From positions 1 through 15,448 of the forward strand of contig CAIJKT010000646.1 of assembly GCA_903821255.1 (NCBI GenBank): a DNA stretch of 15,448 bases, written 5' to 3'. Position 1 is the stretch's first letter, and each line of letters starts with the position of its first letter. The notes under the pieces were generated by a model. That model ran no database searches and had not been told where the DNA came from. It saw only the letters and a program-made list of their open reading frames with translations. The translations under genes and the position numbers were made by a program. Positions 1,387 to 15,118 of this stretch are shown piece after piece. Source of the stretch: an uncultured Lentisphaeria bacterium (GTDB lineage: Bacteria > Verrucomicrobiota > Lentisphaeria > Victivallales > Victivallaceae).

Positions 1387-2658
1387 ATGTTTAAACTTGC
1401 AACATTCAAAGTGGACTGCACCCCGCCGGCCGGAACTGTGGTCGGCTTGAATTTCAGCGGCGGCGCGGAATTTATCCGCGATCCGCTCTATCTGCACGGG
1501 TACATTTTTTCAGCCACGGGCGGCAGATATCTGATCGCCTCCATGGATTACTGCGCCCTGCTGCATTCGGCTTATGAGCAATTGCAGACTGCGCTGGCGG
1601 AAGGGGCCGGAACGGCGGTTGAGCATACGGCTGTTCACTGCATCCACCAGCACGACGCGCCGCTGATAGATTTTGAAGCCGCAAAATATATCAATCCGCA
1701 GGCTCATTTGCGTTTTGCCTGGTACCGCGGCATCATTGACAAATGCCGTCATGCCGCGGCCGCGGCATCAGAGAATTTTGTCGAGATTACGGAAACCGGA
1801 TTCAACGAACACCGGATTCACGGTTATGCGTCCAACCGCCGGATGCCGGACAAGGACGGCAGGATTCAAGTCAGGTTGAGCCGCTGTGCCGAACAGGCGC
1901 TGAGAGACCTTCCGGCCGGAACGATTGACCCGATGCTCCGCACCTGCGCTTTCAAAGACTGTTACGGCGGGATAGCGGCAACGCTGAGCTTCTATGCCAC
2001 GCATCCGCAAGTGGCAAACAGCGGCAATAAATTCAGCGCCGACGCGCCGGGCGAAGCCGTCCGGCTGCTGGAGCACGAAATTCCCGACGCAATCCATGGT
2101 TTTTTCACCGGCGCCGGCGGCAATATCACCGCCGGGAAATATACTTCAGCGGATGACCTCGAAGGCAACATTCTGAAGTTCGGGAAAAAACTGGCTGACG
2201 GAATATCGTCAAATATCAAAGGCATGCAATGGGAACCGGCCGGAGACCTCGCATGGCGGAAAGCATCATTTCCTTTCCCCGCCGTGCCGGCGGACAGAAA
2301 TAAACTTGGCGAAATGCTGCAAAAAGATCCCGCCAGCGCTGCTTCAGCCGCCGCGCTGCTTGGCGCCGATGACTTCAATCCGTCTCCGGAATATGTGATC
2401 AACATGCTGCATACCGGCAATGTCAGGCTGATTTTTCTGCCGGGCGAACCGTTTGTGGAATACCAGCTTTTCATCCAGTCGCTGCTTCCCGATGAATTTG
2501 TCGCCGTCGCCGCCAATTGCCGGGACGATTTTCTCTACCTCCCGCTGGCCGCCAGTTTCAATGAAACCGGCGGTTACGAGACCGGTTATTTCTGCCGCAC
2601 CACCCCGGAGTTCGAGCCCCGGTTCAAAGCAGCCGTTACCGGACTGCTTGGCCGGTAA
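1387..2658 (+). CDS. Neutral ceramidase-like hydrolase
   Basis: A 423-residue protein resembling the N-terminal catalytic domain of neutral/alkaline ceramidases, zinc enzymes that cut the amide bond of ceramide. Using the 1387 start, landmarks in order are: FKVDCTPP near the start (family: vDiTPP); the probable zinc motif IHQHDAP (H87, H89); YATHPQVANS...FSADAPGE (His of the HP pair at 206); GFFTGAGGNI (238-247); and FLPGEPFVEYQ near the C terminus, where the family has a glutamate metal ligand. There is no signal peptide and no C-terminal immunoglobulin-like domain, so it is shorter than secreted ceramidases and may act in the cytoplasm on another amide. The open frame extends upstream to 1252, but the promoter at 1327-1355 makes that unlikely. 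AAAGGA lies 13 nt before the start. The gene ends convergent with, and overlapping, the GH95-like gene. Fold assignment is good; the substrate is unknown. Confidence 0.75.
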   Translation: MFKLATFKVDCTPPAGTVVGLNFSGGAEFIRDPLYLHGYIFSATGGRYLIASMDYCALLHSAYEQLQTALAEGAGTAVEHTAVHCIHQHDAPLIDFEAAKYINPQAHLRFAWYRGIIDKCRHAAAAASENFVEITETGFNEHRIHGYASNRRMPDKDGRIQVRLSRCAEQALRDLPAGTIDPMLRTCAFKDCYGGIAATLSFYATHPQVANSGNKFSADAPGEAVRLLEHEIPDAIHGFFTGAGGNITAGKYTSADDLEGNILKFGKKLADGISSNIKGMQWEPAGDLAWRKASFPFPAVPADRNKLGEMLQKDPASAASAAALLGADDFNPSPEYVINMLHTGNVRLIFLPGEPFVEYQLFIQSLLPDEFVAVAANCRDDFLYLPLAASFNETGGYETGYFCRTTPEFEPRFKAAVTGLLGR

Positions 2659-2659
2659 C
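2635..2659. repeat. Inverted repeat carrying both convergent stop codons
   Basis: GTTACCGG (2635-2642) and CCGGTAAC (2652-2659) form a perfect 8-bp stem with a 9-nt loop. Each arm carries the TAA stop of one of the two convergent genes, which overlap by 23 bp. The hairpin could stop transcription from both sides, but no T-run follows on either strand, so its role as a terminator is uncertain. Confidence 0.5.
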
Positions 2660-4885
2660 CGGAGCGAGAACCTTTAGATGATCAATATCTGATTCAAGAA
2701 TGGTGTCTTTGAGAAAATATTCTTCTCCCGGTGCAAATTGAAGTTTAACCACCGTTGCGTCATCCGCCGGTTTCAGCTCCATCGAGCCGCCTTTGAGGCT
2801 TTTAATGTTCAGTGATGTCATTTTACCATTTCTGCGTTCGGCGCTGATCAGGAAAGCTCCCGGCAGACGGACATTTTTGAACGAAATATCCAGCCATTTA
2901 TCGGGAACCGCCGGGAATACATGCACGACTCCCTGTTTCTCATGCACCAGCATTTCAATAATTGCGGTGGCTCCGGCCATTGTGCCGTCAAGCTGCATGA
3001 TTTCGCTGGTCTCTTTCGGTTTCAGCATATCGTTTCGCCGGTGCGCGGTCAGTCCGCGGAATTTCGGCAGATAAGCAGTCGCCAGGCCTTCATTGATGAA
3101 TACTTCCTTCCAGATGTTCAGCAGCAGGGCCGGCGCGTCCTTGAACCCCATCCGGGCCTGGATGATCGCGGCCCAGGGATAGCACCATTCACTCCACTGG
3201 CCCATGCCCCGCACGATCCAGTGGTCGATGGAATTATCAATGATGTGCTGCTGTTCAGGCGAGATATTCTTCAGCGTGTCGAACGGATAGATACAGGCCA
3301 GGTGAGAATGATGGCGGTGGCAGACGTCTAAATCCTGATCCGCCCAGATGGCGATATGTTCACTGCCCGGTTCGCCCGTAAGCGTATATTCCGGAACGCG
3401 CTGTTTAATTTCCCGCCAGACCGGGCGTGGAGGGAGACCGAGAATTTCACCGGCCTCCAGCAGCATGTCCGCCAGCATGTGAATGCAGGCCAGTTGATTG
3501 GACGGATCGCGTCCGGTATTTTGATGAACCATGCGGCCGTCTTTTTTTACCGGGAAAATGCAGCCGTATTCAGCGGAAATGCTCAACGGGATGGACAGCC
3601 TGCCGTTATATTCCTCCAGAGTTTCTTCAAAAACCCGCATGACGCCGTAAATGAACGGATAAGCGCGTTTTTTGAGAAACTCCTTATCCTGCGTGTATTT
3701 GTAATAGAGCCAGTAAAGCCGGGCCGTCCAGCCGCCGCAGGCAAAATCCAGGACGCTGCCGGTGCTGATGCCGCCGCACTGATAACCGCGGTCATCAACG
3801 GCATGGGTCATCAGCAGGCCGTCTTCAATGCCGAACAGATTGCGGGCATTTTCGCGCATCACCCGCTGAAAAGATTCGGATTCCAGCATGTCAAACAACG
3901 GCATCAGGTGTTCAAATTTTCCGGTGGCGAATGCCAGCGTATAAATCTGCTGGATATTGACATTAAAATGATAGTCGCAGCTCCACGGCGCAGTCTGGTA
4001 TTCTTCCAGCCACGGCCCCTGCAGTGCGCATGCAATGCCGCCGGGCCGGGTCGCGCAGGCGAATTTATACATGGCGAACTTGTAAAACCGGTTAAGAAAA
4101 TCTTCCGGAATCCGGATTGCCGGAGTATCTGCCCAGTAATTGCGCCACCAGCCGGCGACGGCTTCAGAGGTGGTTTGAAAATCTTCCGATGCCTTGTTCA
4201 ATACCGGCGCATACCCCAGTTCCAGGGATACCGCAAAGCCGTAATCGGCAGCGCGGCAGAGCGCCGTTACGCCGGGATCGTCCGGACACGCCTGAAACCA
4301 TCCGTCGCCGGTTTCGCCGTTGAGCATTTGCGGCGGGACGTATCCGGCCATCTGCATAAGGTGACCAACCCACTCCCATGCGGGACGGCATTTGACCGCG
4401 GCAATAATATGGTCCGCATCTTCAATCAGCAACTGATTGCCGGAAAGACTTTGGATCAGCCGCATGATGCCGCCGTCTTTTGTCAATACATCCAGACATC
4501 CGGACTGGTATTGAAGTTCGGCTTTGGCCAGTTCGTGTCCCGGCTTCAATTCCAGTTCGAACCGTCCGACCGGCAATCTGGTGGAACTCCAGCCGGTATG
4601 GTATCGGGCCCACATCTGGTGGCGGAATTCCTGGACTTCCTTACGGACGAAACGATTTTGCACCGGCGCTACATCATAAGGATCATATAAGTCCACCAGT
4701 TCCCGGTATGTCTGTCCCGGCATGACACATTCGCCGTAACGATGGTCCCACAGATCCCCGCGGTTCAGCGTGATGCAGAGGCGGCTTCCGCCGCCCCACA
4801 CCAGCGCACCCATATTCCCGTTGCCCAGCGGCACTCCGCAATGCGTCCGGTCCAGCGGGAATTTAAAAACAATGCTGTCTTTCAT
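2636..4885 (-). CDS. GH95-like glycosidase (alpha-L-fucosidase/alpha-L-galactosidase family)
   Basis: A 749-residue protein with the full GH95 plan. An N-terminal beta domain (PLGNGNMGALVWGG, 19-32; LNRGDLWD, 40-47) precedes an (alpha/alpha)6 barrel and a C-terminal beta domain. GH95 enzymes are inverting hydrolases of alpha-L-fucosides or alpha-L-galactosides. Residues matching the known catalytic set of bifidobacterial AfcA are visible: the Asn pair in HFNVNIQQ (N308, N310), the general acid in SISAEYG (E439) and the activating aspartate in QLDGTMAG (D633). Their spacing (131 and 194) is close to that in AfcA (145 and 200). HRHHSHL (523-529) is another family motif. There is no signal peptide, so it should work in the cytoplasm on imported oligosaccharides. 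GGAAG sits 7 nt before the ATG. It lies 48 bp after the esterase gene and appears to close the operon. The exact substrate is not clear. Confidence 0.85.
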   Translation of the reverse strand: MKDSIVFKFPLDRTHCGVPLGNGNMGALVWGGGSRLCITLNRGDLWDHRYGECVMPGQTYRELVDLYDPYDVAPVQNRFVRKEVQEFRHQMWARYHTGWSSTRLPVGRFELELKPGHELAKAELQYQSGCLDVLTKDGGIMRLIQSLSGNQLLIEDADHIIAAVKCRPAWEWVGHLMQMAGYVPPQMLNGETGDGWFQACPDDPGVTALCRAADYGFAVSLELGYAPVLNKASEDFQTTSEAVAGWWRNYWADTPAIRIPEDFLNRFYKFAMYKFACATRPGGIACALQGPWLEEYQTAPWSCDYHFNVNIQQIYTLAFATGKFEHLMPLFDMLESESFQRVMRENARNLFGIEDGLLMTHAVDDRGYQCGGISTGSVLDFACGGWTARLYWLYYKYTQDKEFLKKRAYPFIYGVMRVFEETLEEYNGRLSIPLSISAEYGCIFPVKKDGRMVHQNTGRDPSNQLACIHMLADMLLEAGEILGLPPRPVWREIKQRVPEYTLTGEPGSEHIAIWADQDLDVCHRHHSHLACIYPFDTLKNISPEQQHIIDNSIDHWIVRGMGQWSEWCYPWAAIIQARMGFKDAPALLLNIWKEVFINEGLATAYLPKFRGLTAHRRNDMLKPKETSEIMQLDGTMAGATAIIEMLVHEKQGVVHVFPAVPDKWLDISFKNVRLPGAFLISAERRNGKMTSLNIKSLKGGSMELKPADDATVVKLQFAPGEEYFLKDTILESDIDHLKVLAPVTGQAVR

Positions 4886-4933
4886 TTTTTGTCTTCCAAA
4901 AATTATTAATGTGTTCCGACATTGGCCACCGAC

Positions 4934-6184
4934 CTAGTCCGCCTTTATCCAAAATGATATTGTGACAGGTTTCCCCGCCTCCACAGCAAGATCCCTGTTC
5001 AGTCTGTCCACGCTTGTACACTTGACAAAACCACTGCCGCCGTGCGCCTTCCCGGATTTCACATCATAAACAGGCTTGCCAAGCGGCTGCCACCCGGAAG
5101 GGAGTCCGTTGGAGCCTGCCGTCTCAAAGTCTCCATTTTCAATTGCAACTCCGCCAATTTCCACATCGTCATAGCATACGTACTGATCTTTCATGCCGCC
5201 CATGAAAATAAGCATCACAACACCGGAATTTTTCGGGGTAAAGGTGAAATGACACTTTGTCCACTCGGCTGTCACCGGCTGGGTGGCAACTACAAGTCTC
5301 TGGTCGGCGTTCTCTTTCATCCAGCCGGCCGGGCCGCCGGATACACCATCACTGCCGCGGTCAAAACTCATGGAGACTTTGGAGTTCACTCCAAAGACAT
5401 GTACGCCGGCACTGGTTACGGATATCGCTCCTGCTCCGCTCTTTGCGGGCTGTTGAGCCGGCAACGGGAGTGGAACTTCTCTGCAAAAATCCTTCAGCGG
5501 ACTTGCCGGCTTCTTCAAATCCTTCACGATCAGCCCGGCCATTTTATAGGCCCCCTCCGGCGAGAAATGAGTGCGGTCCGACGGGCGGTAAAAAGATTCG
5601 GACTTGCTCTCCCCTGACTCATTCAGGAGTTTGCCGCTGGATTCATAGAGATCAACGCAGAATACTCCCTTCTCGGCAGCTACCTCGTTCATTGCGTCGG
5701 CATAGGGTTTGAGCTCTGCCGACAGGACTCCGGACTTGTCGAAAACGCGGCGGTGCATCGGAGTGATGAAGACCGGCGTGATGGAGGCGGCTTTCGCGTC
5801 ATCAGCGTATTTTCTAAGGAAATCCTTGTAATTTCCACCCGCAACGGTGGACTCCGCTTTTTCTTTTCCGTGAGAGTCGTTATGACCAAACTGTACAAGG
5901 ACGAACTGAGGTTTGCCAGCCAGAAGTTTTTTCCAGCGCCCTTCCTCAATGAAGGTTTTTGAGCTGCGCCCTCCAACTGCCAGATTTTCGACTTTGCAAC
6001 CGTCGCTCAGAAAGAACCGAATCATCTGGCCCCAGCCGGCAATGTTGTCGCCAGGCTTATAGTTTGCGACGGTGGAATCCCCCGCCAGCGCGATTGTAAC
6101 TTTATCTTCGCCATGTGCGAAAGCTCCCCATGCAACAACCATTATCACAAGAGCAGAGAGCATCATTGATTTAAATTTTGTCAT
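4934..6184 (-). CDS. Secreted rhamnogalacturonan-acetylesterase-like SGNH esterase
   Basis: A 416-residue exported protein. A signal peptide (about 1-23, ending WGAFA before HGEDK) precedes an SGNH/GDSL esterase domain of the CE12 rhamnogalacturonan acetylesterase type. All four blocks are visible: GDST with nucleophile S37, the glycine of LAVGGRSS (G71), N102 in FGHND, and D203/H206 in SDRTHFS. These enzymes remove acetyl groups from pectin backbone or similar glycans so that glycosidases can reach the chain. Residues about 255-416 look like carbohydrate-binding jelly-roll sequence, but the parts seem out of order and the protein stops abruptly at SFWIKAD. AAGGA touches the ATG directly, an unusually short spacing; an upstream GAAAG may serve instead. 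It lies 77 bp after the large glycosidase gene and 48 bp before the GH95-like gene. Esterase call is firm; pectin as substrate is likely but not proven. Confidence 0.87.
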   Translation of the reverse strand: MTKFKSMMLSALVIMVVAWGAFAHGEDKVTIALAGDSTVANYKPGDNIAGWGQMIRFFLSDGCKVENLAVGGRSSKTFIEEGRWKKLLAGKPQFVLVQFGHNDSHGKEKAESTVAGGNYKDFLRKYADDAKAASITPVFITPMHRRVFDKSGVLSAELKPYADAMNEVAAEKGVFCVDLYESSGKLLNESGESKSESFYRPSDRTHFSPEGAYKMAGLIVKDLKKPASPLKDFCREVPLPLPAQQPAKSGAGAISVTSAGVHVFGVNSKVSMSFDRGSDGVSGGPAGWMKENADQRLVVATQPVTAEWTKCHFTFTPKNSGVVMLIFMGGMKDQYVCYDDVEIGGVAIENGDFETAGSNGLPSGWQPLGKPVYDVKSGKAHGGSGFVKCTSVDRLNRDLAVEAGKPVTISFWIKAD

Positions 6185-6261
6185 TCCTTGATTCTTTCAC
6201 ATTTAAATTCGTGTTTTAAAGTTGATTTTCTGAGTTTGTGCTTCCATGTCATATCGATTTT

Positions 6262-9200
6262 TCAACGTTTATAAAGCGCGACATCGCTGACAACCGCATT
6301 ACTGTAATCCTGACGCAGCGTGAAGAACTCAAAATAAACCGGAGCTTTCGCATCAGCGCCGGCAACCGTGAACGGAACTTCATATCTGGTCCAGCGGTCC
6401 CCTGCCGGCAAATCTCCGCCGCTGAAAGTTTTTTCCTTCTCTTTGGACAACCTTACTTTCATCGTATCAATTTTATCCCCTTTGACATAAAATACCAGCA
6501 GATAATCGCCGGCGGCAAGATTAACAGGCTGACCGGTAACGGAACCGCGCCGCAATGTCGGCCCCCAGGAGGGTTCTTCCAGTATCTCAACCTTGATGCC
6601 GGGGCCTTTGCCGAAACCCTCTTTGACTTCATACGCCGTGGTTTTCCTGAGCGCATAATCCAGATTGCTTTTCCATTTGATATTACTATTTTCAAGCATA
6701 TCAGCATTCAATCCCGGTATCTGAAACAGCGGATAATGCGCGCGAAATTTATAAGATTCAAGTTTCGGATCAATCAGCGCGGCTTTAGGTTTAGATTCTT
6801 TGCCGTCTTTTCTGGACAGTTCAAAATTCATCCCGATAATGTTGCCGGCTCCCGGGGACGAGGCGATTTCATCCAGCGGCAGGGAGATCAGCAGCGCATA
6901 ACCGTCCGCTGTTTTTTCCTGCTTTAATACCGCGCCGGATTCGAATGCTTTACCGGATGATGGATTTACAACTTGAATCGTTCTGCCGGTCAGCGACGGA
7001 ACTGCGGCAAAAAGATATTGATTGATTTTTAAATCCGGAATGTTTTTTCCGCCAAAATCATCCAGGCCGATGCGGTTAAACGGGGAGCGGTCAATGAACA
7101 GCTCCAGCGCATCGCCATTCCAGAGATTATTGTCCGGCGACGGCGTGACTGCCGGGTCGCTGACTTCAGCCTTGACCCACAATTTGCCGGAGCCGGTCCA
7201 CAGCGCCAGTTTCGAGCCGTCTGTCATCTGCAACTTGAGTGCGGCGGCTTCCCCGGCGGGAATCGTAAATTCCCCGCTGCCGGCGTATATTGCAATATTA
7301 TCCGCGACTAATTTGCTTTCGCCTTTAAGCCCGGACTTAAAACCGGATTTGGCAAGCTTGAAGCCAACCGGCAAACGTAAATAGTCAGAATCTTTAAAAT
7401 ATAACTTAACTGGAGCAATGTTGTCGTCAAAATCCGCCAGCACCACATTTTTGGAACCGGACAGATTTTCCGCCTCCAGGAAAGTCATATTGCCAAACAT
7501 TCTGCCGCGGATCGCAACCGGACGGGCGGTTTTGAATTCAGCCTGCGTAAAAAGTGAAGTCAAACGGTCTTTAGAACCGGTGGCAAATATCGGATCCAGC
7601 CCGAGTTCGATTTCCTTCTGCGCCGGCAGTTCATTGCCAAAACAGTCGTACAATTTAACTCCAGTGACTGCCGGAAGAATCATCGTCATTCCGCCTGCGC
7701 GGAGCGACCAGATCACGCCGGAACTGTTCCTGCCGTCCCTGTCCGTGAAAATGCCGCAGCGCAACAGTTTATTCGAAAGTTTTATCGGTGTTGTTTCCGA
7801 TTTGCCGTCAAGAAAAGACGAGAGGCTGTTGAGCCCGGCCAGAATATCGTTCGGGCCCAGTTCATTCTGATTTTTGCTGATACTGGTGCTGGGAATGCCG
7901 GTGATGCCGCGCAGGCCGTTCAGCAGACCCAGCAGATAATGACGCTGGACATCTCCGGCGGAAAAGGCCTCCTGCCGGCCGATATCCTGCTTCCGTTTGG
8001 AATTATCGATAAAATACAGTTCCTGCTCCCAGAGCGGAGTTTCCGGAGCGAGAGTTTTTTTCAATTTTTCAATCAGATTGGAATAGCGGAAAAGCACGCC
8101 GTTAATATTGTCCAGACTGGACTGATAAGGGTTGAATGACACGCAGTCAAGATATTTTTCGAACCCGATATTGTGCAGTTTTTCAAGCCATCCGATAAGA
8201 TTATATCCGGCATCGCTGGTGGCATCGCCGGCGATAAGCAAATCCTGCGGGTTCTTCTGCTTAATAATCTCCCAGGCTATTTTCTGCAATATCAAATAAT
8301 CCTGCGGCGTCAGCACCCACTGCGGCTCCACCAGCAGCATCCATTTATTGACCCGGCTGCCGAAATGTTCGGCTGCGCTGTTGACGTGCAGCCGCCAGAT
8401 ATCATCTTTCAGTGTGCGGGGTTCCCGGTCCGGAGTGTCTTTATCAAGTGACCGCCGGGTGTATTTGTCATCATAAAACCAGTTGGGCATGGGACCAATC
8501 TGCACTCCGCCATTCATCCGCCTGGTGGTATAAATCCACCACGCGCCCAGGCTTGGAATCGGCTCAATGCCATACTTTTCCAGCAGTTTGATATCGGCGT
8601 CGATCATGGTAAAATCCATTCTGTCGGGCTGCGGCTGAACTTTCTTCAGGTCAAATGAGACCATCCCGTGTCCAAATCCGCATAACGCATAAAGTTGCGT
8701 TTCCAGATCAATGCCCTGTCTGATTATCAGCGGGCAGTCATTGGAAGGCGTCAATTGATAATAATTCCCGATCGTCCGGAAATGTCCGCCGATGCGTTTG
8801 CGCAACGGAGAAATTGCTTTATCCAGTTTGTGCAGCACTGCAAAATCGCCGCCGGAACTGAAGACCGGTGTGCGGTCAAACACTACTACCGTATTGAAAC
8901 TGCCGTACTGCTTCGGTTGATATTTGACTGAGCCGGTATAAAGTGAACGTCCATCAATGGATTTAAAAGACGCATCCCGGTTCAGCGCTGTTTCGAGAGT
9001 TTCCATATTTTTCAGGAAATAGTCACTGCGGAGATGAAGGCGGATTGGAGCCTTGGCTTCTGAACTGTGCAGCAACGCCTGAATTTTCAATTCAACCGCT
9101 TCATCCGGATAGAAAACACTGATAGAGCGATCACAGGTGATGGCGGCTTCGTTGCATACTGCCGCTTCGGCGGCGTCCGTATAGCAGACCTTTAAATTAT

Positions 9201-9819
9201 CCATGCAGAGTCCGTTAAGCCATTCCGCCGGATTCCTGCTGAATGACCGGAACATTATGGTGTAAGTGAAATTTGCTTTAACCTGGATCTTATATGAATA
9301 TTTCCGCCATTCTTTTCCGGGATTGAACGTTTTGCTTTCCAGTACCGGGTAGCGTTCCTTGACGCTGCCGTACTGACGGGTAAGATCACTGCACCGGAAA
9401 TCCATGATGATCCCCGGCTGTTCATGCAGTTTGCCGTCTTCATCCGGAATGCTCTTCGCCATGAATGAAATTTCAACTTCGCCGTTCCGCGGCAGATAGA
9501 ATCCGGCGGCATAAAGATTGTATTCAGGCAGACCGTGATAACCCGGCATTTCCAGATATTGATTGCCGGATTCCTCGCGGCGGGTCACCGGCGCATAAAT
9601 CCGTTCAGGATTCTTATAGCCTTCATCTTTGTTGAAGTAGCCGAGGGCGAAAAAACCGGGAACCGGTTTGCCGGATTTGCCAAGCTCCATATTGCCGTTG
9701 AAAATCAACCACTTTTCCTGCCTGGCGATTTCCGGATTATCCAGCAGCATGACATCGGCAGCCTGAATTCCGGAGGCACACAACATAAAAGCCATTACTT
9801 TCCGTACCAATTTTCTCAT
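6262..9819 (-). CDS. Secreted multi-domain clan GH-A-like glycoside hydrolase with CBM9-like module
   Basis: An 1185-residue exported protein, the largest in the window. After a signal peptide (1-20, cut after SGIQA) comes a carbohydrate-binding jelly roll (about 35-215, FNGNMELGKSGKPVPGFF) and a beta-rich linker region. A TIM barrel (about 345-690) resembles GH39/GH42-type clan A hydrolases. Candidate catalytic residues are E498 in LLVEPQW after strand 4 and E600 (or E598) in PLWEQELYF after strand 7. The usual clan A Asn before the acid/base Glu is replaced by Val, so activity is not certain. Residues about 870-1030 resemble CBM9 (NLWNGDALELFIDR, 898-911), and a last CBM4/9-like module covers about 1040-1185. 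AAGGA lies 9 nt before the ATG. It starts 32 bp after the pseudopilin gene, so the two are probably translated from one message. It probably cleaves a plant or algal polysaccharide outside the cytoplasm; the linkage is unknown. Confidence 0.75.
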   Translation of the reverse strand: MRKLVRKVMAFMLCASGIQAADVMLLDNPEIARQEKWLIFNGNMELGKSGKPVPGFFALGYFNKDEGYKNPERIYAPVTRREESGNQYLEMPGYHGLPEYNLYAAGFYLPRNGEVEISFMAKSIPDEDGKLHEQPGIIMDFRCSDLTRQYGSVKERYPVLESKTFNPGKEWRKYSYKIQVKANFTYTIMFRSFSRNPAEWLNGLCMDNLKVCYTDAAEAAVCNEAAITCDRSISVFYPDEAVELKIQALLHSSEAKAPIRLHLRSDYFLKNMETLETALNRDASFKSIDGRSLYTGSVKYQPKQYGSFNTVVVFDRTPVFSSGGDFAVLHKLDKAISPLRKRIGGHFRTIGNYYQLTPSNDCPLIIRQGIDLETQLYALCGFGHGMVSFDLKKVQPQPDRMDFTMIDADIKLLEKYGIEPIPSLGAWWIYTTRRMNGGVQIGPMPNWFYDDKYTRRSLDKDTPDREPRTLKDDIWRLHVNSAAEHFGSRVNKWMLLVEPQWVLTPQDYLILQKIAWEIIKQKNPQDLLIAGDATSDAGYNLIGWLEKLHNIGFEKYLDCVSFNPYQSSLDNINGVLFRYSNLIEKLKKTLAPETPLWEQELYFIDNSKRKQDIGRQEAFSAGDVQRHYLLGLLNGLRGITGIPSTSISKNQNELGPNDILAGLNSLSSFLDGKSETTPIKLSNKLLRCGIFTDRDGRNSSGVIWSLRAGGMTMILPAVTGVKLYDCFGNELPAQKEIELGLDPIFATGSKDRLTSLFTQAEFKTARPVAIRGRMFGNMTFLEAENLSGSKNVVLADFDDNIAPVKLYFKDSDYLRLPVGFKLAKSGFKSGLKGESKLVADNIAIYAGSGEFTIPAGEAAALKLQMTDGSKLALWTGSGKLWVKAEVSDPAVTPSPDNNLWNGDALELFIDRSPFNRIGLDDFGGKNIPDLKINQYLFAAVPSLTGRTIQVVNPSSGKAFESGAVLKQEKTADGYALLISLPLDEIASSPGAGNIIGMNFELSRKDGKESKPKAALIDPKLESYKFRAHYPLFQIPGLNADMLENSNIKWKSNLDYALRKTTAYEVKEGFGKGPGIKVEILEEPSWGPTLRRGSVTGQPVNLAAGDYLLVFYVKGDKIDTMKVRLSKEKEKTFSGGDLPAGDRWTRYEVPFTVAGADAKAPVYFEFFTLRQDYSNAVVSDVALYKR

Positions 9820-9851
9820 CAGTAAGAATCCTTAATTGCAATAATTTATAT

Positions 9852-10592
9852 TCAGCGTCCAGTGGCGGCAAAGTATTTTTTCCATGCCGCAACGCCGGAA
9901 GCATCGTCATAGATCATATATTCCCTGATGGGCGCCAGTCTGGCATGGCCATCCGTATAGCTGGTCGGGATCAGATTATTATGGTAATCACCCCAAATCT
10001 GGGCATAGCCGGAGCCGAAATACGGCCCGGCCAGATAGCGGTAATCGATAATCACATAATTCGCGCCGTACACTCCCGGACCGTAACCGCCGCAAAGGAC
10101 TTCCACCGTTTCGCTGGGCTTCTGGATTTTGTTCCGCTTAAATCCGTCCAGTCCGGGAATATTTTTCATCCAGCTTGGCCCCGCCCCGTTCATCAGGTAG
10201 GGAGTGTTCCAGGTGGTCTGCGGAACCGAAGTGTAATGCACATTGGACGGACACATGGTTTCCAATATGGAGGTAGAGACGCCGCCCCAGGGCTCTCTGG
10301 CCCCTTTCATGTATTTGCCGCTGATCAGAAGCATGGTCCAGGTACGCGTTGGAGACCATGCCTGGGCTGGAGACGGATAACAGTCCGCGGAATCCGCGGA
10401 ATAGTTGCCCAATGCCAGATTTATCTGTTTGGTATTGTTCACGCAATTGATCTGTCTCGCCTTGATTCTCGCTTTGTTCAGCGCGGGCAGCAGCATCCCG
10501 GCCAAAATCGCGATGATGGCGATCACGACCAGGAGTTCAATGAGCGTAAAAATTCTTTGTTGCGACATTTTTTGCTGACTGATGTTTTTCAT
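9852..10592 (-). CDS. H-X9-DG pseudopilin-like protein (prepilin-type N-terminus)
   Basis: A 246-residue protein with a type IV prepilin N-terminus: a short basic leader, then [16 protein letters not shown] (16-31) and [11 protein letters not shown]. The Glu at mature position 5 (E19) is present. Residues 204-215, [12 protein letters not shown], fit H-X9-DG exactly, the C-terminal signature of a pseudopilin-like family hugely expanded in Lentisphaerota and Planctomycetota. Such proteins are thought to be inserted in the inner membrane by the N-terminal helix and may assemble with type II secretion-like machinery. The residue before the expected cleavage point is Ile15 rather than Gly, so normal prepilin peptidase cutting is doubtful. 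The start is fixed by a strong ribosome site 7 nt upstream. Its position between the regulator and the secreted glycosidase suggests a role in export, display or capture of the glycan or its enzymes. The function is unproven. Confidence 0.88.
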
Positions 10593-10599
10593 TCTGGAA

Positions 10600-10609
10600 T
10601 CCTCCTTTT
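10600..10609 (-). promoter_or_regulatory. Strong ribosome binding site of the pseudopilin gene
   Basis: The minus strand reads AAAAGGAGGA, near-complete complementarity to the 16S rRNA tail, 7 nt before the ATG at 10592. It is the best such site in the window and points to high expression of the pseudopilin compared with its operon neighbours. Confidence 0.8.
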
Positions 10610-10658
10610 ACCGTTTTTTACATTCGCTACAAATTAATTATCTTCACTTATTCCGGCG

Positions 10659-11765
10659 CTAACAAGTTTCTCTGACAATCAGCTCCGAGTCAATCTTAAT
10701 ACATACTGTTTCGCCGGAATTTTCATTATTGATATTCTTTTTGATCATTTCGCCCAGCCGCCTGCCGATTTTTTCCAGCGAAGGCGATACTGTCGTCAGA
10801 TTGTATTCGCGATATTTCGAATTATCGTCAAATGAAATCAGCATAAAGTCCTTTCCGGCAGTTAACGAATGAGACTTGGCAATATCCACTATAAGCGCGG
10901 CCACCTCGTCATTCTGGGCGATTAAAACCACGGACTTACTTTCCAGCTCTTTGATAAAGCAGTCATTGCCTTTTGCAAAACTCTTACCGTCTTTTATAAA
11001 TTCCAGAACTTTTAATTTCCGGTTGCCGCCGGAACCGCGCTTGAAACCAAATTCAAGACCGCGCAGTCGTTCGCGCAGCCAGAAACTTTCAAAACCGGCC
11101 CGCCGGCAGAAAATCACATTTTTCAATCCCTTAGACAGCAGATAATCGGCGACCATGACACTATCGCCAAAAACATTTACCGAGACTATATTGTACGGCC
11201 AGTCCAGCCAGCTGGAGATCCCCCGGTCAAATATAAACACATCGTTATGGAACTCAAAAAATATTTCAGGATACTGGGAAATAACGGTTTCCAGATCCTG
11301 GTCCGCAACAATCAGCAAGGCATTGCAGCCTTCGCAAACCAGTTCTTTCAGCAGTCGGCGGTAGTCTTCCAGTTCATTGATGCCGGAAATATCCCGGTAA
11401 ACCATTTCGATTGATTCCGCCTTCAGCACACTTTCCAGCGCCGACATGATCCGGTCATTCCAGTGAATATGCTGAAAAAGAGGATTGCAGTGGTTAAGCA
11501 CGCAGACCCGCCGGGTGGTAACACTTTTCAGTTCGCCGAAGGAATACGGGCGCGGGACGCGGTTGACAAACGTACCCTGCTTTTTGTTTCTGCGCAAAAT
11601 TCCGAACCGCTCCAGTTCCTTGATCGCAAAATGCGCATTCATCCGGTTAGTGTCAAAGCTTTTGCTTAATTCGCTCTCGGTGGGAATACGCGCGTTCTCG
11701 CCGAATCTTCCTTCGGCGATATTATCCAGCAGGTAATTATATATTTTTTCCTGAGAGAGATTCAT
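10659..11765 (-). CDS. GntR-family regulator with LacI-type sugar-sensing domain
   Basis: A 368-residue chimeric regulator of the AraR/GntR-LacI type. The N-terminal winged helix (about 1-68) shows the GntR signature IPTESELSKSFDTNRMNAHF (27-46) and the wing ILRRNKKQGTFV (56-67). From about 85 to the end is a periplasmic-binding-protein-like sensor of the LacI class, with LISFDD...LTTVSPSLEKIG near residues 307-332. Such proteins repress sugar-use operons until the inducing sugar binds. It is the first gene of the minus-strand block and ends 66 bp before the pseudopilin gene with no clear terminator. It is therefore the likely regulator of the whole glycan operon as well as of itself. Its own promoter carries four candidate half-sites. 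No ribosome site is visible before the ATG, so translation may be weak. The inducer is unknown. Confidence 0.9.
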   Translation of the reverse strand: MNLSQEKIYNYLLDNIAEGRFGENARIPTESELSKSFDTNRMNAHFAIKELERFGILRRNKKQGTFVNRVPRPYSFGELKSVTTRRVCVLNHCNPLFQHIHWNDRIMSALESVLKAESIEMVYRDISGINELEDYRRLLKELVCEGCNALLIVADQDLETVISQYPEIFFEFHNDVFIFDRGISSWLDWPYNIVSVNVFGDSVMVADYLLSKGLKNVIFCRRAGFESFWLRERLRGLEFGFKRGSGGNRKLKVLEFIKDGKSFAKGNDCFIKELESKSVVLIAQNDEVAALIVDIAKSHSLTAGKDFMLISFDDNSKYREYNLTTVSPSLEKIGRRLGEMIKKNINNENSGETVCIKIDSELIVRETC

Positions 11766-11777
11766 AAATACCAGAAT

Positions 11778-11819
11778 AATGTTAATGTTTTTAACTTACT
11801 ATATTAACATTATAACATT
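11778..11819. promoter_or_regulatory. Candidate GntR-type operator cluster
   Basis: Two AATGTT hexamers in tandem (11778-11783, 11784-11789) face two AACATT hexamers (11806-11811, 11814-11819), giving four half-sites in inverted orientation within 42 bp. They overlap the -10 box and the predicted leader of the GntR-type gene. The arrangement fits binding of two dimers that would block the promoter. Confidence 0.65.
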
Positions 11820-11837
11820 AAAAATTAATCCTGTCAA
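11809..11837 (-). promoter_or_regulatory. Consensus sigma70 promoter of the GntR-type gene and probable glycan operon
   Basis: On the minus strand, TTGACA (11832-11837), 17 bp and TATAAT (11809-11814) are perfect consensus elements. Transcription should start near 11802. No other convincing promoter was found between the genes of the central block, so this may drive the whole cluster down to 2636. Confidence 0.85.
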
Positions 11838-12877: not shown

Positions 12878-14152
12878 ATGGATGATGCAATGAGCAATTT
12901 TTCAGTTACTCCGGAGGAACGGGTTTATCTGCGTGAACTGGCGAAGAAGTGTCAGGAATATGCCAGTCTGCCGGTGATGGCGGAACGCCGGAAACTATGG
13001 TACGGGCATAACGCCCTGCAAGGCCGCCGTCCGGTGCTGGTGATGGAACTCAATACTTTTATCAGTGACATCCTCCCGCCGCTGAAATGCACCAGTCCGG
13101 CTGCGCGGGAGATGGAGGCCGAACTTCAAACCAGGATCGTCAATCATGAACTGGTTGATGACGATAAAGTACTGCCGGATGATTATACCGTTCCCTGGCA
13201 GATTGATTTCCGCCTGTTCGATCTGGAAGTGAAGATGCACCGGGCGGAGGACTCCGAAGGCCGCAATGTGGGTTATCAGTTCGAATACGACATCACCGAT
13301 CTGCGGCGCGACATCGAAAAACTCCGTCCGTCAACGTTTCGCGCGGACCGGTCCGCGACTTTCGCGAAAAAGGAATTCGTCGAATCGCTGATCGGCGATA
13401 TTCTGCCGGTGCATATAAAAAACATGTCAATGGCGTGGGCTTTCGGCATCACTGCGCGGGTTGTTATGCTGATGGGGATGGAAAACATGTTCATGTCGCT
13501 GATGGATTCCCCTGAAGAAATGGTGCGCCTTTTCAATATGATCCGCGACGGCATGCTGGATTTTTCGAGATGGATGGAGCGTGAAGAGTTGCTGACGCTG
13601 AACAACGGCAATGATTATGCCGGGGCCGGCAGTTACGGTTTTACCAGTGAACTTCCGTCCGCGGATTTTACCGGAAAAGTCAGGTGCAAAGATTTGTGGG
13701 CAAACCTGAACAGCCAGGAGTCGGTCGGACTTTCCCCGGAAATGTTCAGAGATTATATCTATCCGTCATACCACGAACTTGCCAAAGAATTCGGCATGAC
13801 TTACTACGGCTGCTGTGAACCGGTACATGAAATATGGGAAAGCTGCATCAGGCATTTGCCCAATCTGCGGAAAGTGTCCGTCTCCGCCTGGTGCAACCAG
13901 CAGAGCATCGGCGATGCCCTGCGCGGCTCCAAAGTGATTTACTCCAGAAAACCGTCGCCGAATTATATCGGCGTCGGGGATTTTGTTCCGGAAGCGTATG
14001 CCGCCCACATCGCGGAAACGCTGAATGCCGCCAGAGGCTGTGAACTGGAAATCATCCACCGCGATATTTATACACTGAACGGCGACCGCACCCGTCCCGG
14101 CAGGGCAATCAAAATCGCCCGCGAACTGATTGAAAAACAATGGCACTGTTAG
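12878..14152 (+). CDS. Uroporphyrinogen decarboxylase-superfamily (methyltransferase-like) protein
   Basis: A 424-residue cytoplasmic protein that resembles URO-D-superfamily proteins common in Lentisphaerota and Planctomycetota. The superfamily also contains MtaA/CmuA-type methylcobamide:thiol methyltransferases. Visible pieces are a long N-terminal region with LWYGHNAL and RRPVLVMEL, a middle part with WAFGITARVVMLMGMENMFM and SPEEMVRLFNMIRDG, and a C-terminal barrel half with SPEMFRDYIYPSYHELAKEF. YYGCCEP (309-315) has two adjacent Cys that could bind zinc, which is inference. It is unlikely to be a haem-pathway HemE because there is no other haem gene and the sequence differs strongly. 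The ATG at 12878 has no ribosome site; the in-frame ATG at 12890, preceded by GGA, is an alternative. It is divergent from the AraC-type gene and convergent with the amidohydrolase, 21 bp away. The reaction is unknown. Confidence 0.75.
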   Translation: MDDAMSNFSVTPEERVYLRELAKKCQEYASLPVMAERRKLWYGHNALQGRRPVLVMELNTFISDILPPLKCTSPAAREMEAELQTRIVNHELVDDDKVLPDDYTVPWQIDFRLFDLEVKMHRAEDSEGRNVGYQFEYDITDLRRDIEKLRPSTFRADRSATFAKKEFVESLIGDILPVHIKNMSMAWAFGITARVVMLMGMENMFMSLMDSPEEMVRLFNMIRDGMLDFSRWMEREELLTLNNGNDYAGAGSYGFTSELPSADFTGKVRCKDLWANLNSQESVGLSPEMFRDYIYPSYHELAKEFGMTYYGCCEPVHEIWESCIRHLPNLRKVSVSAWCNQQSIGDALRGSKVIYSRKPSPNYIGVGDFVPEAYAAHIAETLNAARGCELEIIHRDIYTLNGDRTRPGRAIKIARELIEKQWHC

Positions 14153-14173: not shown

Positions 14174-14983
14174 TCACAGCCCTATTATTTTTTGGGCGTT
14201 GCGGTACATGACGTCTTTTCTGGTTTCCTCATCTACGTTGAACGCGTTAAACAGGTTATCATAAAATTCAATGAGTACCTCCGGCAGCGGACTGTCCGAC
14301 CCGAAGACGATTTTTTTGAACAGCTCCATATTCGTTACCTCCTCCGTAGTCCGCAGGTTGATTTCCGCTGACTTGCAGAAGAGGATTTTGAGCAACGAAT
14401 ACGGCATCCAGCGGATAGTGCCGCCGCTTAAGTCAAAATAGACGCCGGGAACCTTCGCGGCAACCTCCGCCGCCTGTAGACAGAAGCCGGTATTCCCCAG
14501 GTGCGCACCGATCAGTTTAAGACCGGGAAACGCTCTGCTCACGGCGTCCAGATGAACCGGCTGCATGCGCTCATAGGAGACTGAACGGCCGTCTCCGCCG
14601 CTTGCCACATAGCCGGTATGGAAAAGAATAAACATCTTGTGCGAAACTGCACGTTCGTAGAAAGGGAAATAGGCTTTGTCGTCGTAGTTCCTTCCAGTGT
14701 AGATGAATTTAAGCCCCCTGAAGCCCCATGCGTGGAATGTGTCCACAATGTCGGGGGCATCCCGGTCCGGATCGGGATTGCCGACACCGATGAAAAAATC
14801 CGGATATGCATTCACGGCATCGCGCACCTGGGTATTATATTTCGCGTGATAATCGCAGATGCAGGCCTTCTCCACTCCGATTTTTCTGCAATGCCCGACA
14901 TATTCTCGGAGTCCAAGTCCGCTGACAGATACGCTCCCTTTGCTCTCTTCCACCTGAATATGTGCATGCATGTTGATAATCAT
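14174..14983 (-). CDS. Metal-dependent amidohydrolase (amidohydrolase 2 type)
   Basis: A 269-residue cytoplasmic TIM-barrel hydrolase or decarboxylase of the COG2159-like group. All expected metal and catalytic positions are visible: HAH after strand 1 (H6, H8), a barrel lysine in RGLKFIY (K92), H122 in LFHTG, H161 in GAHLG and D230 in FGSDSP. Family members hydrolyse or decarboxylate small cyclic or aromatic acids and lactones. The frame extends 11 codons upstream to 15016, but GGGAG lies 6 nt before the inner ATG and the protein then starts MIINMHAHI, as is usual, so 14983 is preferred. An MFS transporter gene lies upstream on the same strand (135 bp gap), suggesting uptake and breakdown of one substrate. 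It is convergent with the URO-D-like gene. The 135-bp gap upstream shows no convincing promoter. The substrate is unknown. Confidence 0.85.
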   Translation of the reverse strand: MIINMHAHIQVEESKGSVSVSGLGLREYVGHCRKIGVEKACICDYHAKYNTQVRDAVNAYPDFFIGVGNPDPDRDAPDIVDTFHAWGFRGLKFIYTGRNYDDKAYFPFYERAVSHKMFILFHTGYVASGGDGRSVSYERMQPVHLDAVSRAFPGLKLIGAHLGNTGFCLQAAEVAAKVPGVYFDLSGGTIRWMPYSLLKILFCKSAEINLRTTEEVTNMELFKKIVFGSDSPLPEVLIEFYDNLFNAFNVDEETRKDVMYRNAQKIIGL

Positions 14984-14989
14984 TTCCGT

Positions 14990-14994
14990 CTCCC
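14990..14994 (-). promoter_or_regulatory. Ribosome binding site fixing the amidohydrolase start
   Basis: GGGAG on the minus strand stands 6 nt before the ATG at 14983. The alternative ATG at 15016 has no comparable site, so the shorter protein is preferred. Confidence 0.65.
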
Positions 14995-15118
14995 GCCATT
15001 TAGTATTTTCATTCATATTCGTTCATCTAAAATAGCGGTTGAATAAAAGTTTCCCAGCAGCAGATTTTAAATTTACATAATTCGAATGCAGTTTTATGGA
15101 ATAGATGTCAGCATCCGG

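Follow-up and report, generated by a model that had tools for sequence, protein, structure and literature searches.

A pseudopilin gene between regulator and enzyme genes in an uncultured Lentisphaeria bacterium, and a group II intron in pseudopilin leaders of related genomes

The stretch of DNA analyzed here, referred to as the window, is the 15,448 nt of contig CAIJKT010000646.1 from an uncultured Lentisphaeria bacterium, and our subject is a pseudopilin gene that it carries within a run of five genes. On the minus strand these encode, in order, a regulator with a GntR-type helix-turn-helix (HTH) and a LacI-type sugar-sensor domain, an H-X9-DG pseudopilin, a GH39-like enzyme, a CE12-like esterase and a GH95-like enzyme (Table 1). 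The intergenic gaps measure 66, 32, 77 and 48 nt, respectively. No terminator-like sites were found within these four gaps, and two weak promoter-like matches (9/12) lie within the gaps or at their edge, at 10665-10637 and 6252-6225.

Table 1. Positions of features in the window and of intron copies in related genomes (G, genome; L, locus).
Feature	Position	Strand	Basis
GH95-like enzyme without evident signal peptide	2636..4885	-	154.2 bits; resembles solved GH95 enzymes
SGNH/CE12-like acetylesterase with C-terminal CBM_4_9-like domain	4934..6184	-	Lipase_GDSL_2 67.8 bits, CBM_4_9 28.4 bits
1185-aa enzyme, GH39-like catalytic domain between beta domains, weak CBM9	6262..9819	-	profile and model
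H-X9-DG pseudopilin, prepilin leader and DUF1559	9852..10592	-	PF07963, PF07596
Empty intron site, codons F-T-L-I-E and first base of next Leu (TTTACGCTCATTGAAC)	10535..10550	-	window pseudopilin
Regulator, GntR-type HTH and LacI-type sugar-sensor domain	10659..11765	-	PF00392 and PF13377, above cut-off
Candidate operator, 9-bp inverted repeat AATGTTAAT-N16-ATTAACATT, overlaps -10 hexamer	11778..11811	.	both arms identical in L001 alignment
Promoter TTGACA-17-TATAAT with TG ahead of -10, upstream of regulator	11809..11837	-	12/12 consensus match
Complete intron copy, 1973 nt	L117:3636-5608 (G206)		RVT_1 and GIIM (reverse transcriptase, maturase domain)
Intron-end loci in G001	e.g. L034, L035, L040, L042-L071, L074-L103

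Ten proteins of the window were scanned against Pfam and NCBIfam. The pseudopilin matched N_methyl at 28.1 bits (cut-off 21.2) and DUF1559 at 26.5 bits (cut-off 23.3), the latter covering just the first 42 of 268 model positions, and the H-X9-DG motif is exact near its C-terminus (H204, D214-G215). An H-X9-DG family model was not among the nine NCBIfam families matched at E<=0.001, the content of the library for such a model being unchecked, and the score against TIGR01710, the model for the type II secretion system (T2SS) major pseudopilin GspG, was 38.3 bits, below the curated cut-off of 88.85. The predicted structure (pLDDT 78) has a type IV pilin fold. Foldseek searches with this model returned no match below E 0.001 and no prominent row with a carbohydrate-binding fold, a result that excludes nothing. 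Homologues of the pseudopilin form seven protein clusters at 56-100% identity over at least 96% of the length, after which identity drops to 35%; a plasmid search with the window pilin gave no match. Among the ten genes scored, the pseudopilin has the strongest Shine-Dalgarno sequence at -11.6 kcal/mol, followed by an alternative start of the amidohydrolase gene (-7.4) and then by a site at -5.9 kcal/mol.

The GntR and Peripla_BP_3 domains of the upstream protein scored 46.5 and 57.3 bits, and from its sequence this protein is presumed to be the regulator of the operon. The inverted repeat that overlaps its promoter has a single match in the window and none in 200 shuffles. Elsewhere, among 313 loci compared, it was found only in L001, a locus of genome G001 (Lentisphaeria metagenome-assembled genome LJ_bin-1925, the closest relative among the genomes available), and in L195, which is the same locus as L001. 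Promoter and repeat are nearly unchanged in L001, and the remaining intergenic sequence can be aligned only with large gaps; the gap between regulator and pilin is likewise variable, yet the Shine-Dalgarno sequence AAAAGGAGGATT is kept. This pattern of conservation fits a single, autoregulated transcript. The order of genes in L001 is AraC, GntR/LacI, pseudopilin, glycoside hydrolase (80% identical to that of the window), one extra SGNH-like gene, CE12 and GH95. Since gene order is kept in L001, a chance arrangement is excluded. A closer relative of the window is known as protein cluster P0001, with 98% identity over the glycoside hydrolase. The preliminary description of this stretch had proposed a regulated five-gene operon with small gaps, a GntR/LacI-type regulator at its head, and an H-X9-DG pseudopilin with the strongest ribosome site in the window. 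All five open reading frames are present on the minus strand where they had been placed, the domains and the motif agree with the assignments, the conserved promoter and repeat precede the regulator, and the ranking of the ribosome site is upheld.

The enzymes of the operon were assigned with differing clarity. The 1185-aa protein has nearly no Pfam domain, and the preliminary designation as a multi-carbohydrate-binding-module (CBM) hydrolase is weak: a single CBM9-like match (22.9 bits) falls below the cut-off of 23.4, while the model (pLDDT 84.8) does place many beta domains around a GH39-like barrel. Profile comparison touched GH39 and GH10 structures. When the model was searched with Foldseek, the first two rows were GH2 enzymes with poor overall superposition, and the third was the GH39 enzyme 5jvk, matched over the catalytic part with a TM of 0.68 by target length and an E of 1.5e-17. 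E498 and E600 are invariant across 16 aligned homologues, with a spacing that we take to be that of clan GH-A. For the esterase, the closest solved relatives are YxiM and rhamnogalacturonan acetylesterase. Judged by eye from their N-termini, the 1185-aa enzyme and the esterase are presumably secreted, and we infer a cytoplasmic location for the GH95-like enzyme. Our guess is that the operon may act on an acetylated pectic glycan bearing fucose or galactose.

In the genome-wide tests, G001 and further genomes from its phylum stood in for the window's own genome. Candidate pseudopilin leaders numbered 212 in G001; 150 were scored and all 150 were above cut-off. One hundred of the 150 were drawn at random for a survey of their neighborhoods, and a gene was called in 96 of these and in none of the other 4. 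Genes were called by codon usage with a caller that reproduces the main genes of the window, and the controls comprised 211 genes from 20 stretches in the interiors of long contigs. A gene was present immediately downstream of the pilin (+1) in 92 of 96 cases, was on the same strand in 89 of the 92, and combined the same strand with a gap of <=150 nt in 60 of the 92. These +1 genes are long (median about 775 aa, compared with 282 aa in the 211 control genes), and a crude rule assigned signal peptides to 59/89 of them versus 31/211 controls.

Regulators were called by phmmer at E<=1e-5 to the three in the window (LacI, GntR and AraC types). Upstream of pilins they were found at position -1 in 17/56 (14 on the same strand), at -2 in 10/42 (6 on the same strand) and at -3 in 1/26; downstream, the counts were 2/92 at +1, 0/82 at +2, 2/72 at +3 and 1/66 at +4. 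Only 2 of the 211 control genes were regulators, and the pooled enrichment at -1 and -2 is significant (Fisher p=5e-13). Counted by pilin, a regulator stands at -1 or -2 in 25 of the 56 cases having an upstream gene.

Pfam was applied to 63 of the 89 same-strand +1 genes in bulk, plus ten that we picked from the remaining 26, mostly the longer ones. The bulk set yielded 37 families, and among the 25 listed most are carbohydrate-active by name, including Laminin_G_3 (4), CBM9 (3), GH42 (3), GH123 (2) and GH20b (2), as well as PL8, PL11, GH4 and GH78. The commonest was DUF4838 (10/63), and DUF6259 was found in 3/63; both are without a function in Pfam, and we take both to be associated with glycan enzymes. 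Seven of the ten picked genes were carbohydrate-active by name, two were DUF4838/DUF6259 proteins and one was a regulator. Among controls, 130 of the 211 genes gave 198 families, of which the 25 listed are housekeeping or general and include none of the +1 families named. Because of this enrichment in regulators, strand, length and Pfam families around pilins, the order regulator, pseudopilin, large enzyme is, as read from the genome sequence, a recurrent layout in G001. The preliminary description had called such pseudopilins abundant in Lentisphaerota and had put forward their pairing with regulator and glycoside hydrolase genes for testing; the 150 leaders listed in this related genome and the enrichments on either side of the pilin bear both out.

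Outer-membrane uptake systems of the SusC/SusD type were also sought. None of the ten scanned window proteins had a SusC/SusD-type Pfam match, and the SusD and TonB-receptor barrel families were found in 0 of 5 genomes searched, in which the positive controls were detected. These five genomes, none of them the window's own, are G001 and four others of unstated kinship from the same phylum that carry the intron. All five did contain matches to the T2SS/pilus ATPase (T2SSE; 10-14 per genome) and to secretin (7-14 per genome). That the pseudopilin takes the place of SusC/SusD is a conjecture that is weighed below.

The pseudopilin genes of G001 have a further feature, a group II intron in the codons of the prepilin leader. 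Many contigs of this genome break off roughly 100 nt from where a pilin gene starts. Nine of eleven such pilin contig tips carry a group II intron 3' end (RF00029 41.5 bits, gathering score 40), and in the other tips, those of L029 and L030, too little sequence is left at that end. The intron 3' ends at these tips run into differing pilin bodies. That G001 contigs so often end at pilin genes is explained by a burst in intron copy number. A 5' junction pattern guessed from the leader codons, ACNYTNATHGARC|GTGYG, matched 34 times in G001 and not at all in a reversed control. In 30 of 30 junctions read, distinct 5' exons ending in FTLIE were joined to a common intron 5' end over approximately its first 100 nt, beyond which the copy at L074 departs from the others; GTGTG was present at the 5' junctions read. 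Pattern counts came to 44 5' ends and 58 3' ends, with no matches in controls, and the intron copy number of at least 58 is such a pattern count, in which a 5' half cannot be matched to its 3' half. F-T-L-[IV]-E precedes the junction in 28/28 further 5' loci, and 29/29 further 3' loci continue as pilin bodies, so that all intron ends read in G001 fall within the pseudopilin codons FTL(I/V)E^L. In the random pilin sample, an intron 3' end was found in 40 of 100 (37, plus the contig tips L127, L138 and L220).

A complete copy of the intron was recovered from genome G206 (L117), where it interrupts a pilin gene that is preceded by a LacI-type regulator. Its exons join in frame on inspection, and splicing is predicted to restore the pilin reading frame; the 3' boundary was taken as the point where copies begin to differ, together with restoration of the frame. 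A second full-length intron is located in G368 (L243, 71% identity), and further relatives occur in the pilin leaders of G324, G365, G162 and G236 among the 387 genomes of the phylum examined. That in G236 (L248, contig C29) is a remoter member whose 5' junction follows the codons FILIE. The 5' junction pattern was present in 12 of the 387 genomes, with 3 matches for the reversed pattern in the 387. After reading the loci, real 5' junctions were assigned to G001, G368, G365, G324 and G206, and G304, G118, G135, G278, G244, G216 and G379 were dropped as lacking FTLIE. Ten genomes matched the full intron, with two candidates scored in each, and of these G140, G214 and G280 were dropped as the match lay within the reverse transcriptase alone. 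In two G001 loci, L042 (C443) and L049 (C238), the intron occupies the leaders of pseudopilins with bodies apparently of another type, and therefore the intron target appears to be the leader and no single subfamily.

Group II introns recognize their targets by pairing of exon-binding sites (EBS) with intron-binding sites (IBS) in the exon. An EBS1-like GTTCGAT (nt 274) and an EBS2-like GAGTG (nt 257) of the pilin intron are able to pair with the codons around T-L-I-E-L. These motifs were sought with the site already known, and the intron holds GTTCGAT twice and GAGTG three times. Sites with 12/12 pairing are rare by chance (11 of 257,988 positions). The idea that better pairing leads to occupancy was rejected, as 12/12 pairing was found in 18/30 occupied and 37/63 unoccupied sites, the latter set including three occupied contig-tip copies. 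Possible relics of the intron 3' end in unoccupied pilins were faint matches only (L154, E 1e-4; L202, E 0.02) and are not claimed. The window had no Rfam match over the gathering score, and the empty site in its pseudopilin pairs 7/7 with the inferred EBS1 and 5/5 with the inferred EBS2.

The 3' end of the intron, when translated in frame with the pilin body, itself encodes FTLIE, and this was so for each of the six variants read: LMLRGFTLIE (G001), LMIRGFTLIE (G206 and G324), LRRRGFTLIE and LLRIGFTLIE (two copies in G368), LQLRSFTLIE (G365) and LRQSKFTLIE (G162). The residue ahead of F varies between G, S and K, and the three codon differences within FTLIE are all synonymous (TTT/TTC, ACT/ACA, GAA/GAG). 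In L117 an ATG overlapping by 44 nt the stop of the reverse transcriptase starts an open frame that leads into the pilin, and therefore an unspliced transcript could also give a prepilin. This re-encoding may reflect selection for read-through or be a by-product of domain VI structure, the predicted fold of domain VI being ambiguous. We tentatively propose, with somewhat less than even confidence, that this is an intron lineage specialized on the prepilin leader, for which nearly any pseudopilin gene would serve as a homing site, and that a pilin split by it could be made either by splicing or by read-through, which would let it fill about 40% of the pseudopilin genes of one genome. If so, the genes behind the intron, which are often glycan operons, would be expressed under splicing control, and a mobile intron would carry a patch with which to repair the motif that it interrupts.

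Three other loci with intron sequences were encountered. L118 (G368:C126:26000-34000) has a pilin gene with two diverged intron pieces and, by eye, an apparent Gfo/Idh-type gene between them; it looks like an insertion that was rearranged or carries cargo. G001 also has a second group II intron, distinct from the first, at L073:775-2728 (C409; RF02005 106 bits, RF00029 49.2 bits). L072 (G001:C197) contains a 549-aa reverse-transcriptase reading frame in a stretch without an Rfam intron match and was not assigned to the pilin intron. Outside the operon, the window encodes a LacI-type regulator (262-1221) with its own 12/12 promoter (1289-1261) and a GCCAACGTTGGC palindrome (1245-1256), and, divergent from it, a 454-aa protein without a Pfam match (1294-2658). 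On the other side are a protein without a Pfam match at E<=0.001 (12878-14152) and an amidohydrolase (14174-15016), and the counterparts of both adjoin the operon in L001.

Taken together, the data suggest that the window is one of many regulator-pseudopilin-enzyme cassettes in which the cassette-linked pilin would aid export or display of the enzymes or hold their glycan, an account that we judge to have an even chance of being correct. The conserved promoter and repeat, the gene order and the recurrence across G001 are apparent at the level of sequence. On binding a breakdown sugar, the regulator would cease to repress its own operon; the pseudopilin would then be produced in quantity, cleaved by a prepilin peptidase and incorporated into a T2SS/pilus-like machine. 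There, as a subunit of the pseudopilus or of its tip that is tied to the cassette, it would assist in exporting the cognate enzymes, in displaying them at the surface or in holding their glycan there. Oligosaccharides would be taken in by a route other than SusC/SusD, and the GH95-like enzyme would complete their breakdown in the cytoplasm. Several observations weigh against this account. The pilin model, which is of middling confidence, has no carbohydrate-binding fold, and the exact H-X9-DG motif occurs in just 39/96 G001 pilins (H-X8-12-DG in 57/96). No LacI, GntR or AraC regulator stands at -1 or -2 for 31 of 56 pilins, and 32 of 92 +1 genes fail the combination of same strand and gap <=150 nt. 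Like pilins go with like enzymes weakly: the partner enzyme of the nearest pilin was related in 10/70 cases versus 1.5% of pairs, and similarity of pilin tails and enzymes gave a Pearson coefficient of 0.07 (permutation p 0.007) and a Spearman coefficient of about 0. The survey covers one genome, its control stretches were chosen by ourselves from long-contig interiors, and the tally of the 63 Pfam-scanned +1 genes omits the share without a match, the first gene being one such.

The weak tracking between tail and enzyme argues against a strict one-to-one specificity of pilin and enzyme, and strict co-evolution of the two was rejected on this ground. It would also favor a model in which the pilins are interchangeable subunits of one pseudopilus, their supply rising with export load and without cassette specificity, as would the highly conserved N-terminal part of the pilins and the many paralogues. 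We find that model doubtful, given that the orthologue group of the window pilin is full length in seven clusters, is positioned alike in L001 and has its own diverged tail. Direct binding of glycan by the pseudopilin at the surface, in which it does the work of SusD/SusC as the preliminary description supposed, is in our estimate unlikely. The missing SusD and TonB barrels in the genomes searched, the adjoining enzyme genes and the motif conserved near the pilin C-terminus speak in its favor; the predicted fold is an ordinary type IV pilin fold, pilin tails scarcely track enzyme family, and a pilin is no channel and therefore could not replace SusC. That leader codons host a mobile intron in related genomes would be in keeping with pseudopilin genes scattered by recombination that play no part in glycan use. 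This we consider highly improbable, as the position between regulator and enzyme is strongly non-random, the Shine-Dalgarno sequence is conserved, and a pseudopilin of Verruconatronum is reported to be over-expressed on alginate (PMC13274419).

In the polysaccharide utilization loci (PULs) of Bacteroidota, built on SusC/SusD, one operon encodes a regulator tied to the substrate together with secreted enzymes and intracellular ones. The window differs in having a pseudopilin and a one-component GntR/LacI regulator and no SusC/SusD match. It can be seen as a PUL-like unit, with a pilin standing where SusC/SusD would be, that is experimentally approachable. A search of the literature for "H-X9-DG" with "Lentisphaerae" found no paper, and we noticed nothing closer than Verruconatronum alginivorum (Verrucomicrobiota). 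In the sections available to us, its PulG-like pseudopilin gene pgaptmp_000050 belongs to an alginate gene cluster that is reported as upregulated on alginate, the genome is said to have 67 pseudopilin homologues, over-expression is given for another pseudopilin encoded outside the clusters, and the authors propose T2SS export of alginases (PMC13274419). The proteome had one replicate per treatment, and the proteome section available does not state a rise of the cluster's own pseudopilin (PMC13274419). As in the window, a pseudopilin there belongs to a degradation cluster; organism and substrate differ, and those sections contain no survey of regulator-pilin-enzyme order and no intron (PMC13274419). 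A pseudopilin in a glycan-degradation cluster is thus already published for Verruconatronum, and what is new here is the one-genome neighborhood test and the intron.

The DUF1559 family has 74 genes in Rhodopirellula baltica (PMC2754498) and has been called exclusive to the PVC group (PMC4807772), and its proteins are described as solute-binding and of unknown role (PMC2754498, PMC4807772). It shares with the window pilin the DUF1559 match and the many paralogues, and the portions of these papers available do not mention a link to enzyme operons. Our survey ties the large DUF1559/pseudopilin families of PVC genomes, in one genome, to regulated enzyme operons. For the intron, we recognized no report of a group II intron in pseudopilin genes among the listings of an open-license library. 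The nearest parallels, from the excerpts available, are the Clostridium tetani intron C.te.I1, which is inserted in a surface-layer gene (PMC3919590), and the 101 multicopy group II introns of Arthrospira platensis (PMC8919778), which likewise concern a surface-protein gene or a high copy number in one bacterial genome. Unlike these, as far as those excerpts describe them, the pilin intron has at least 58 3' ends in one genome, those read all share one codon position in a single gene family, and the motif that it interrupts is encoded again, in frame, by its 3' end. An intron that targets the leader would be an unusually clean natural system for studying targeting, copy-number bursts and the tolerance of insertions in working operons.

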